From a virus, in IMG/VR virus record IMGVR_UViG_3300005841_000093, positions 1 through 20,137 of that record: a stretch of DNA of 20,137 nucleotides; one strand, given 5' to 3'. Both the position numbers and the translations under genes were made by a program. This document shows, in pieces, positions 10,351 to 20,137 of the stretch. A model generated the notes under the pieces. That model was given only the letters and a program-made list of their open reading frames with translations, was not told the DNA's origin and made no database searches. Every line of letters starts with the position of its first letter. Within the stretch, counting starts at the first letter, position 1.

Positions 10351-10427
10351 CATTCGCTCCTTGGGTTGAATGGGTAGCGGATGGAAACGTCGCGCGTTGA
10401 AACATGTTCCTTCAGAGGAGGACTGCC

Positions 10428-10598
10428 ATGACTCTCGGTCTCGCCTATTGGATTCTGATGCTGGTCTGGTTCGTGTTCGGATTGCTCGTGCACTTCGGCA
10501 TGGCTGGAGGATACGGCGTGGTCGGCGGCACCTTGCTGCTGTTCGTGCTGTTCGTGCTTCTCGGCTGGCAGGTGTTCGGCGCACCGCTGCGCAGGTGA
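10428..10598 (+). CDS. Small two-helix membrane protein, holin-like
   Basis: A 56-aa protein with two hydrophobic segments, residues about 2-25 (LGLAYWILMLVWFVFGLLVHFGM) and about 32-52 (GGTLLLFVLFVLLGWQVFG), joined by a short Gly-rich turn. GAGGAGG sits 6-7 bases before this ATG, which is better than the upstream in-frame ATG at 10404. I recall the form 'LGLAYWVLML.W.VFG' from phages of this group, but not a proven function. A holin or pinholin role is suggested by size, topology and nearness to the endolysin. It is not shown. Confidence 0.72.
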   Translation: MTLGLAYWILMLVWFVFGLLVHFGMAGGYGVVGGTLLLFVLFVLLGWQVFGAPLRR

Positions 10599-10603
10599 TC
10601 GCC

Positions 10604-10708
10604 ATGTGCTGGATCGCGTTCGCGGCGGGAATATTTGTCGGAGCGAATGTTGGTGTTATGACGTTCGCCATCGCTCGAATTGGTGGGCGTGATTTGAAGG
10701 ACGGCTGA
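10604..10708 (+). CDS. Very small single-span membrane peptide, 34 aa
   Basis: A 34-codon frame: 'MCWIAFAAGIFVGANVGVMTF' is a hydrophobic span, followed by a charged end (ARIGGRDLKDG). The Cys near the start (position 2) is not in a lipobox, so no lipoprotein claim is made. Its TGA overlaps the next ATG (TGATG), and it starts five bases after the previous stop, which supports translation as part of the block 10428-11013. A GTGAT stretch precedes the ATG; the ribosome binding site is weak. It may be a lysis accessory or membrane-anchor peptide. Confidence 0.5.
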   Translation: MCWIAFAAGIFVGANVGVMTFAIARIGGRDLKDG

Positions 10709-17663: not shown

Positions 17664-18146
17664 ATGCTCTGGAATGAAGAGACGGACCGGATGCTTGTTA
17701 GCCTTTGGGATGAGGGTGGATCGCTCTCGTTCGTTGCCGACAAGATGCGCGAGGCCGGTTACGATGTGTCGCGCAACGCCATAGCCGGGCGGAAGCACAG
17801 GCTGGCGGAGAAGCAGTCGCCATTCAGAAGAGCACCGAACACTCAATCACGAGTGACGAGACCGATGCCGAAGCGATTGCGTCGGGCATCAAGGGGCAGG
17901 GCGACGACCGTGAAGAAGACGATGGATCAACTACGCGAGGAGATGCAGGCCAACGAGGGCGTTGAGTACATGCTCAACGATCACGGCTGCAAAGCTATTC
18001 TGGACAAGCCACGACGCGGAGAGTGGCTGTTGCAAGTGTGCTGCGGAAAGCCGCGCACTGCATTCGGCGGGAGTATGTCGCCCTACTGTGCGTACCATCT
18101 CCGGATTTACACCAACCCACCACAGCAAAGGAAAGCCAATGGCTAA
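17664..18146 (+). CDS. GcrA-like cell cycle regulator
   Basis: 160 aa. In Caulobacter, GcrA binds sigma70 and boosts promoters carrying methylated GANTC. Here the N-terminal DNA-binding part is well preserved: 'MLWNEETDRMLVSLWDEGGSLSFVADKMREAGYDVSRNAIAGRKHRLAE', matching W....ie.L..LW.eG.S...IA..lg...vtRNAviGk.hRlgL (RNAIAG at about 38-43). A basic linker follows (PMPKRLRRASRGRATTVKK). The C-terminal part 'GCKAILDKP', 'LQVCCGKP' and 'MSPYCAYHLRIY' keeps the GCrwPig..., FCg...., pYC..H GcrA signature. A phage copy could redirect host transcription or read methylation set by the MT-A70 enzyme two genes on. The start follows an AAGGGG-type site; the 3' end overlaps the next gene by eight bases. 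Confidence 0.82.
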   Translation: MLWNEETDRMLVSLWDEGGSLSFVADKMREAGYDVSRNAIAGRKHRLAEKQSPFRRAPNTQSRVTRPMPKRLRRASRGRATTVKKTMDQLREEMQANEGVEYMLNDHGCKAILDKPRRGEWLLQVCCGKPRTAFGGSMSPYCAYHLRIYTNPPQQRKANG

Positions 18147-18636: not shown

Positions 18637-18656
18637 AAGTGGGGAGCAACCTGCCA

Positions 18657-19274
18657 ATGTTGTTTGACGATCCCGCGACGCGGGCAAAGCGCAAGAAGAA
18701 ACTGCGAGCGAAGCGCGAGCGCGAACTCGCGAAGAAGATCAAGAAGCTGCCTTCAGAGAAGTACGGCGTGATCTACGCTGATCCTGAGTGGCGCTGGGAG
18801 CCGTGGTCGCGCGTGACCGGGATGGATCGTGCCGCCGACAATCACTATCCGACATCACCGATTGAGAACATCAAGGCCCGCGACGTGCCGTCGATCATGG
18901 CACCGGACTGCATGCTCTTCCTGTGGGCGACACCTCCGATGCTCGATCAGGCCATCGAGGTGCTGAAGCACTGGGGCTTCGGCTACATCACCAACGCGGT
19001 GTGGGTGAAGCCATCCATCGGCACCGGCTACTGGTTCAGGTTCAGGCACGAGCACCTGTTGCTGGGCAAGCGTGGCGACGTGCCGTGTCCCGCTCCCGGT
19101 GAGCAATGGGAGTCCGTGATCGAGCAACCGCGCAGCAAGCACAGCGAGAAGCCGGTCGAGGTCTATGAGATCATCGAGAGTTACTTCCCGAACCTGCCGA
19201 AGATCGAACTGAACGCACGCCGCCGCCGCGATGGCTGGACATCATGGGGACCAGACTTGCCGGAGGAGGAGTGA
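18657..19274 (+). CDS. MT-A70 family adenine-N6 methyltransferase
   Basis: 205 aa from this ATG; a GTG at 18639 is in frame and adds six residues. It transfers a methyl group from SAM to adenine, in DNA for phage members. 'YGVIYADPEWRWEPWSRVTGMDRAADNHYPTSPIENI' holds the catalytic site: the usual DPPW is here DPEW (D42-W45), and GMDRAADNHYP is a strong subfamily sign. The 'LFLWATPPMLDQAIEVLKHWGFGYITNAVWVKPSIGTGYWFR' and 'HEHLLLGKRGDVPCP' stretches fit the fold, and 'EKPVEVYEIIESYFPNLPKIELNARRRRDGWTSWG' is the conserved end. The first 30 residues are basic (KRKKKLRAKRERELAKKIKK), possibly for DNA contact. GGGGAG lies 10 bases upstream. Its stop overlaps the next ATG by one base. Confidence 0.92.
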   Translation: MLFDDPATRAKRKKKLRAKRERELAKKIKKLPSEKYGVIYADPEWRWEPWSRVTGMDRAADNHYPTSPIENIKARDVPSIMAPDCMLFLWATPPMLDQAIEVLKHWGFGYITNAVWVKPSIGTGYWFRFRHEHLLLGKRGDVPCPAPGEQWESVIEQPRSKHSEKPVEVYEIIESYFPNLPKIELNARRRRDGWTSWGPDLPEEE

Positions 19275-20137
19275 TGGCAGTGAAGTGGAAGAACCCGAAG
19301 AACGCAGCGAAGGAGGCGGAGAAGAAGTACGAGACGCTGAACAATCTGCTTCTGCAGTACGGACTCAACAACATCACGAAGGAAGTGTTCTGGGGGCAGA
19401 TGAATCAGCACGGCTACACGCAAGCCGATATCGATACATGGTGTGAAATCTACTACGCGAGAGAACAGGAGAAGGAAGATGCAAAGCAAGAAGCCAAGCG
19501 ACAGCAAGAAGGGCGGTATGGGTCCGCGCGAGCAACAGCTTCGCGAGATGCGCGAGGCCCGCGTCGAGAAGAACAAGGCGCTGATCGACAAGCAGGGCAA
19601 GGTCGCGAAGGTCGTGGCCAAGGTCGTCAAGAAGATGGCGAAGCGCAGCGGTCGTGGCCGGTAGGTGAAATCTGGTTCACGCTGACGCCGGAGATGATCG
19701 ACTACGTTGACCGCATCGCGGAGAAGCGAAGGAAGATCGCGGCGGATGTCGGAGCGGACAACGAAGGTCGCTCGCCAGAGAATATCTGGCGGCACAAGCG
19801 CGACGGCTATCGTGCAGAGGCGGCGGCGCGGCTGTTCTTTGGGACGAGCGTGCCGTGGTCAATCAATCAGTCAGTCACCGACGGCTCGCAACGGATCGAC
19901 TTCTCCGACTTCATCGATGTAAAGCATCGGCCAAAGTCGGATCGTGAGCTACTGATCCGCCCGGAGAAGAACTTCCGTCGCGAGAATGCTTATCTGCTTG
20001 TATGCGGCGAGAAGCATCCGCACTATCGGATCGTCGGCTGGTGCTGGGGGCACGAGGCGGCGACGGAGGATCGGCTCGGAAGTCCTGATCCAAGACGACC
20101 GCCAGCGTGGCTCGTCAAGGAGCGCGACCCGATCATG
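19274..20137 (+). CDS. Open frame to window end: small N-terminal part, recoded middle, C-terminal nuclease-like part
   Basis: A stop-free frame of 288 codons from the ATG that shares a base with the methyltransferase TGA. Part one (to about 19480) starts MAVKWKNPKNAAKEAEKKYE, looks natural and is helical. Part two (about 19480-19664) reads as Arg/Gly/Gln low complexity with A-rich third positions, while another frame there has the coding signal. Part three (from about 19665) reads GEIWFTLTPEMIDYVDRIAE, later 'FSDFIDVKHRPKSDRELLIRP' and 'YLLVCGEKHPHYRIVGWCWGHEA'. That part resembles a phage family I recall whose N-terminus is 'lTpeEm..aa..g..R' and whose Asp...D-x-K pattern suggests a PD-(D/E)XK-like fold (tentative). 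No ATG, GTG or TTG exists between about 19400 and 19694, so the start of part three is unclear. Confidence 0.6.
   Translation, partial: MAVKWKNPKNAAKEAEKKYETLNNLLLQYGLNNITKEVFWGQMNQHGYTQADIDTWCEIYYAREQEKEDAKQEAKRQQEGRYGSARATASRDARGPRREEQGADRQAGQGREGRGQGRQEDGEAQRSWPVGEIWFTLTPEMIDYVDRIAEKRRKIAADVGADNEGRSPENIWRHKRDGYRAEAAARLFFGTSVPWSINQSVTDGSQRIDFSDFIDVKHRPKSDRELLIRPEKNFRRENAYLLVCGEKHPHYRIVGWCWGHEAATEDRLGSPDPRRPPAWLVKERDPIM
19479..19664 (+). CDS. 61-aa basic protein nested in the frame from 19274
   Basis: An ATG with GGAGAAGGAAG directly upstream, ending at TAG 19664. The product begins MQSKKPSDSKKGGMGPREQQ, then a helix 'LREMREARVEKNKALIDKQGKVAKVVAKVVKKMAKRSGRGR': very basic, likely nucleic-acid binding. 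Nearly all codons end in G or C here (gag, cgc, atg, aag, gtc), unlike the overlapping frame, so this frame is the one under coding constraint. A longer in-frame ATG at 19443 adds 12 residues but has a weaker site. It may also be the upstream half of a -1 frameshift product, because the next coding segment lies in the -1 frame. Confidence 0.62.
   Translation: MQSKKPSDSKKGGMGPREQQLREMREARVEKNKALIDKQGKVAKVVAKVVKKMAKRSGRGR

Follow-up and report, generated by a model that had tools for sequence, protein, structure and literature searches.

We found a locus in which two proteins appear to be encoded by the same phage DNA in different reading frames. The window, by which we mean the whole stretch of DNA that was analysed, is a phage fragment of 20137 bases that makes up an entire IMG/VR record. 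One protein would run from the ATG at 19274 through a domain A, a linker and a domain C. The other, B, would be the product of a complete gene nested in the linker-coding DNA. We suggest, at a probability of about 0.83, that the locus encodes these two proteins and that the fusion arose from a three-gene operon when A lost its stop codons. Sequence comparison suggests that both proteins are made and that the change went from separate genes to a fused one.

Layout and coding signal of the locus

The plus strand of the window carries tail sheath, tape measure and endolysin genes, and the minus strand carries RecT-like and exonuclease VIII-like genes. Near the endolysin gene, two overlapping plus-strand ORFs (10370-10708) encode a product of 112 aa and a membrane-like product of 64 aa (10404-10598). 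They had no match in Pfam and are possibly a small lysis gene. At the right end, a plus-strand run of genes for a YdaS-like regulator, a GcrA-family protein and an MT-A70 methyltransferase leads into the A-B-C locus (Table 1). The second of these is a phage-borne GcrA-family cell-cycle regulator (17664-18146, Pfam E 2e-12). A GcrA-like gene also lies upstream of the locus in most relatives, and a methyltransferase accompanies it in some. Relatives have a RuvC-like gene downstream of the locus, with the parts in the same order as in the window.

Table 1. Features at the right end of the window.
Feature	Position	Strand	Description
MT-A70 family DNA methyltransferase	18639..19274	+	directly upstream of the outer ORF, same direction
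Shine-Dalgarno-like sequence of the outer ORF	19262..19271	+	GGAGGAGGAG
Outer ORF (fused A-linker-C)	19274..20137	+	288 codons, runs to the contig end
Domain A	19274..19478	+	short helical domain, YETLNNLLLQYG..ITKEVFWGQMNQHGYTQADIDTWC
Shine-Dalgarno-like sequence of gene B	19467..19476	+	AGGAGAAGGA, within the A coding sequence
Gene B	19479..19664	+	ATG to TAG, 61 aa, +1 frame relative to the outer ORF, fully nested
B read in the outer frame	19479..19663	+	charged linker of the fused protein, pLDDT about 31
Outer-frame GTA codon	19661..19663	+	overlaps the B stop
Domain C	19661..20137	+	phrog_18407-like, probable PD-(D/E)XK-type fold; conserved E, D and DFIDVK motif

The ATG of the outer ORF overlaps the TGA of the methyltransferase gene (TGATG). 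The last in-frame stop before this ATG is the TGA at 19166-19168. As a preliminary description of this DNA had stated, the frame has no further stop up to 20137. The 3' end of the ORF is missing, by about 15 residues when compared with L002, L013 and L016. The outer-frame start codons are ATG 19274, GTG 19280, GTG 19385 and ATG 19400, and the next is only ATG 19694. The start-free gap that had been described is therefore exact.

The coding signal switches frame twice within this open frame. In A, the GC content at third positions is 0.76 in the outer frame and 0.50 in the B frame. In the overlap the values are 0.40 and 0.87, and in C they are 0.74 and 0.62. Substitutions give the same picture. 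In all five pairs of relatives compared, most changes in A and in C are at outer position 3, whereas most of those in the overlap are at B position 3, which is outer position 1. This agreement of two measures bears out the frame switches of the preliminary description. Of the two proteins encoded in the overlap, B is accordingly the more tightly constrained. Residue conservation in the outer frame does not clearly exceed that in the third frame there, and the linker sequence as such is therefore under weak constraint. In terms of selection on both frames, B is clearly constrained, and the outer frame is constrained at least against stops.

Gene B lies wholly inside the outer ORF, in another frame of the same strand, as the inner member of a nested pair does. 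It has the ribosome binding site, ATG and TAG that had been attributed to it. Its anti-Shine-Dalgarno duplex has an energy of -7.4 kcal/mol, a value reached by 3.2% of random positions. Most lineages have such a sequence at B, although it is weak in L013 and L002. The B protein is basic, with a GPREQQLREMREAR core and an SGRGR end. B is short and matched no family in Pfam or PHROGs, and these features would fit a chance ORF within an outer protein that alone is real. However, B-like genes occur without A or C (L024-L027), and the GPRE..LR..RE core is invariant. Together with the Shine-Dalgarno sequences in most lineages and the overlap changes at B third positions, these points make a chance ORF very improbable.

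Between 19479-19661 of the window and L009:3992-4168, the B-region DNA is nearly identical. In the same pair, the codon positions of A show differences of 16-43%, and the two C regions diverge strongly. The near-identity of the B DNA reflects either strong constraint or a recent exchange.

Domain A is a separate small gene in some relatives, and in L036, L050 and L051 it has no adjoining B or C. AF2 predicted helices at residues 8-30, 36-45 and 50-82 of A, with moderate confidence. The model of the whole window protein, built from six sequences, was poor (pLDDT 46.7), and the linker was predicted to be disordered. In L036, a 3.4-kb insertion (L036:4200-7500) parts A from B. It includes a long CT-rich low-complexity block of the GCCTGCC type and probably carries minus-strand genes.

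An open frame through B in ten lineages

Relatives were gathered by scans with C, which found L002, and then with B, A and alignments. In ten distinct lineages of uncultured phages from IMG/VR, A and C lie in one ORF that passes through the whole of B, in the same frames. These lineages are the window, L002, L009, L010, L012, L013, L015, L016, L021 and L022, and they form six divergent groups. Their B genes span 57-80 codons. The outer frame is open throughout and into C, and B invariably contains stops in the third frame. Among the first six compared, the outer proteins are 36-50% identical to that of the window and the B proteins 42-92% identical to the window B. Searches of INPHARED phages with the window C, B and the relatives' fused proteins gave only weak, chance-level matches, and GTDB genome contigs gave no useful match.

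The alignment of homologues of the three segments, which had been proposed as a check, thus placed them in one polypeptide frame in all ten lineages. B was nested within it, and this favors the option of a long protein with an overprinted gene, one of four that the preliminary description had set out unranked. Another option had been a pair of compensating indels. Sequencing or assembly errors near 19480 and 19664 would then make three ordinary genes seem fused, and the odd look of the window is all that points this way. Ten lineages from separate assemblies have the same three-part layout and frame relations, and identical sequences occur in separate metagenome records (L005/L006, L007/L008). 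Assembly indels are thereby ruled out.

An open frame may also arise by chance. The outer frame closes only where a B codon ending in T stands before a codon starting with AA, AG or GA. Of 66-codon stretches taken from other genes on the same contigs, 16% were open in this relative frame, and one open frame by itself therefore says little. L020 has the same frame open, yet without a fused A, and openness can therefore be incidental.

The codons of B are more telling. In the ten fused lineages, T-ending codons that would close the frame number 0/266, compared with 38/410 in safe contexts (Fisher p 3e-9). Counting only the six divergent groups, the figures are 0/162 and 22/246 (p 1e-5). In four B genes from loci that lack the fusion, avoidance was not significant (4/81 versus 11/132, p 0.26), and control genes had a mild bias (13.1% versus 17.8%). 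We also estimated the probability of an open frame in each lineage. Resampling B from codon usage gave 0.001-0.05, and permuting each B gene's own codons gave 0.03-1.0, which is moderate only. Because the lineages are related, these per-lineage probabilities are not simply multiplied.

Domain C and its junction with B

The C domain of the window matches phrog_18407 (E 4e-5), with residues 25-134 of C aligned to positions 28-132 of the 162 in the profile, which is most of the family length. The C domains of L009, L012, L033, L054, L063 and L065 match the same family, with a best E of 1e-48. L015 has a C that is remotely related (hhalign probability 77, E 2e-5). In L054, L055, L061, L063 and others, C stands alone and starts at the homologous position, and the Synechococcus phages S-CBS2 and S-CBS4 have stand-alone copies. 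C therefore belongs to phrog_18407 by profile match. However, members of this family seen outside the A-B-C locus stand alone, whereas here C is the C-terminal part of a fusion.

Two relatives have unusual C copies. In L021, a second, stand-alone C with its own ATG (L021:819-1355) directly follows the fused A-B-C gene. In L023 (L023:1704-2429, a contig shared with L055), C comes before B and has a C-terminal, zinc-finger-like CxC..WFCxxH tail. This tail resembles a separate small gene that lies upstream of A in other relatives, and it enters B by about 50 nt in the same relative frame.

An AF2 model of the C of L016, a relative's domain and not that of the window, has a pLDDT of 90.9 and an alpha-beta core. 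Its top structural matches are Hjc, Eco15I, NhoI, I-Ssp6803I, DpnI and PvuII, with Z of 6.3-7.5 over ~92-128 residues. Nearly all rows of the match list (Z 5.5-7.5) are PD-(D/E)XK enzymes, the superfamily to which we take Hjc resolvase, PvuII, DpnI and NhoI to belong. Because the structural Z values are below 8, the support for this fold is moderate. C has an invariant E55 and D81 (L016 numbering), and DFIDVK in the window clade. It thus resembles these nucleases in its predicted fold and in its D..(E/D)-V-K pattern, with both the acidic residue and the (E/D)xK motif. Unlike them, it had no match by sequence to the solved structures of the PDB. The best Foldseek E against the PDB was 0.4, and A, B and C all lacked matches in Pfam. 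In other fused members EVR or QVR replaces DVK, which makes catalysis doubtful there.

We conclude that C is probably a PD-(D/E)XK-type, nuclease-like domain, and the fold supports the earlier label of "nuclease-like". The neighbors of the locus are a methyltransferase and, in relatives, a RuvC-like resolvase. The fused protein is likely to act in DNA cleavage or processing during phage replication or recombination. A is perhaps an interaction domain, and B may be a small basic partner of the fused protein.

The first strand of the L016 C model is at EIWIT, right behind the B stop. A start of C at the homologous internal ATG, position 19694 in the window, would thus take away strand 1 and cut into helix 1. 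At the junction itself, GTG overlaps the TGA of B (GTGA) in L010, L012, L022 and L049, and L020 has ATGA. The Shine-Dalgarno sequence there is fair to good in L012, L049 and L020. In seven of the ten fused lineages (the window, L002, L009, L013, L015, L016 and L021), there is no start codon at the junction. The codon is GTA, ATA or CTA, and no consistent start lies nearby. The special start for C raised in the preliminary description finds no backing in the window, where the codon is GTA and the Shine-Dalgarno strength equals background. Ordinary GTG or ATG codons are kept in the five lineages named above. We regard a special start as unlikely.

Four-nucleotide start/stop overlaps are a known signal of translational coupling (PMC10666635). 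C might accordingly be made as a separate protein by termination-reinitiation at the B stop, on an NTG or NTA that overlaps this stop, with the open outer frame incidental or the source of a minor product. The GTGA and ATGA overlaps, and the Shine-Dalgarno sequences of three of these lineages, fit this explanation. However, the window and six other lineages have GTA, ATA or CTA at this site, with a Shine-Dalgarno sequence no better than background. Moreover, B in the fused lineages avoids exactly those codons that close the outer frame. We therefore consider reinitiation improbable as the explanation of the locus, though it is the best of the alternatives.

C lies in the -1 frame of B, and a -1 frameshift from B into C had also been proposed. 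Such a programmed event where B ends would yield a B-C fusion. In L022, B ends in A AAA AAG TGA (L022:4145-4159), where a classic in-phase -1 slippery heptamer immediately precedes the stop. L022 is thus the one lineage in which frameshifting could yield a B-C product. However, an in-phase slippery heptamer is absent from the other nine fused lineages, and a frameshift would need no openness of the outer frame through B. As a general explanation, frameshifting is highly unlikely.

The window and L009 have similar A and B, but an abrupt change at the B stop sets their C domains apart. The C tree separates the two, with the caveat that the L009 C is a long branch. This suggests that C modules may have been exchanged at the junction behind B.

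Stages in relatives and a proposed origin

Some relatives have the same parts in other arrangements, and this evolutionary series, which is absent from the preliminary description, is our main result. In L033, A, B and C are separate and do not overlap, and C has its own ATG. In L049, the stop of A lies 53 nt inside B, and C has its own ATG next to the B stop. A and C are in a common frame there, with three stops between them. In L018, the stop of A lies 68 nt inside B, and a gene D follows instead of C. We considered this next gene as a relative of C, but the hhalign probability was 0.1. Gene D is also found after C in L010. L018 therefore represents a partial A-B overlap and not a stage with C. 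In L010, L012 and L022, the genes are fused and the GTG at the C start is retained.

We propose that fusion of A to C took place in steps. The ancestral operon would have had three genes, A, B and C, with B ending at or on the start codon of C. A would then have lost stop codons, so that it extended first into part of B and later across the whole gene. With A and C in a common frame, translation would have continued into C, and B, read out of frame, would have become a linker. C would subsequently have lost its own start codon. Within the DNA that encodes the linker, B would still have a ribosome binding site and an ATG of its own and be translated from them. A, B and C each exist by themselves, so the simplest and probable reading is that the fused state is derived. 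However, fused and unfused members are mixed in a weakly supported tree of the A domain, so the order of gain and loss is not firm. More tentatively, we suggest a bridging fusion, in which an intact, functional gene is read out of frame as an interdomain linker. It may have formed stepwise, perhaps repeatedly, with C modules swapped behind B. We put this broader reading at somewhat under even odds.

Nested phage genes are well known, and Rz1 within Rz is the classic example. The A-B-C locus resembles lambda Rz/Rz1 in that a longer phage gene wholly contains a small one in a different frame and each has its own start. However, the spanins are two lysis membrane proteins, whereas the outer gene of the A-B-C locus goes on to encode a third folded domain, one that is independent elsewhere. 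Two-component spanins also exist as overlapped or separated genes (PMC6139136). A survey of them found no family that mixes embedded with other architectures, and named stop loss as a possible route to embedding (PMC6139136). In contrast, the same families at the A-B-C locus occur as separate genes, as overlapped genes and in embedded form. A 3' extension after loss of a stop codon is a recognised origin of unidirectional overlaps (PMC3887535, PMC2542354). The same mutation is proposed here, and L018 and L049 look like ordinary examples. Unlike those overlaps, the extension of A crosses all of the second gene and joins the third in frame.

In open-licence papers, we found no described case of a fusion across a retained gene. 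Although nested overlapping genes are already known, a staged bridging fusion across a complete gene would be new. It also carries a warning for annotation, because gene callers that forbid long overlaps would lose either B or the fused protein. Gene fusion usually deletes the intervening sequence, and a new linker needs a source. In the A-B-C locus, the intervening gene is retained and would double as the linker. Because relatives show stages, the embedding route, which had only been proposed for spanins (PMC6139136), becomes testable on real sequences.
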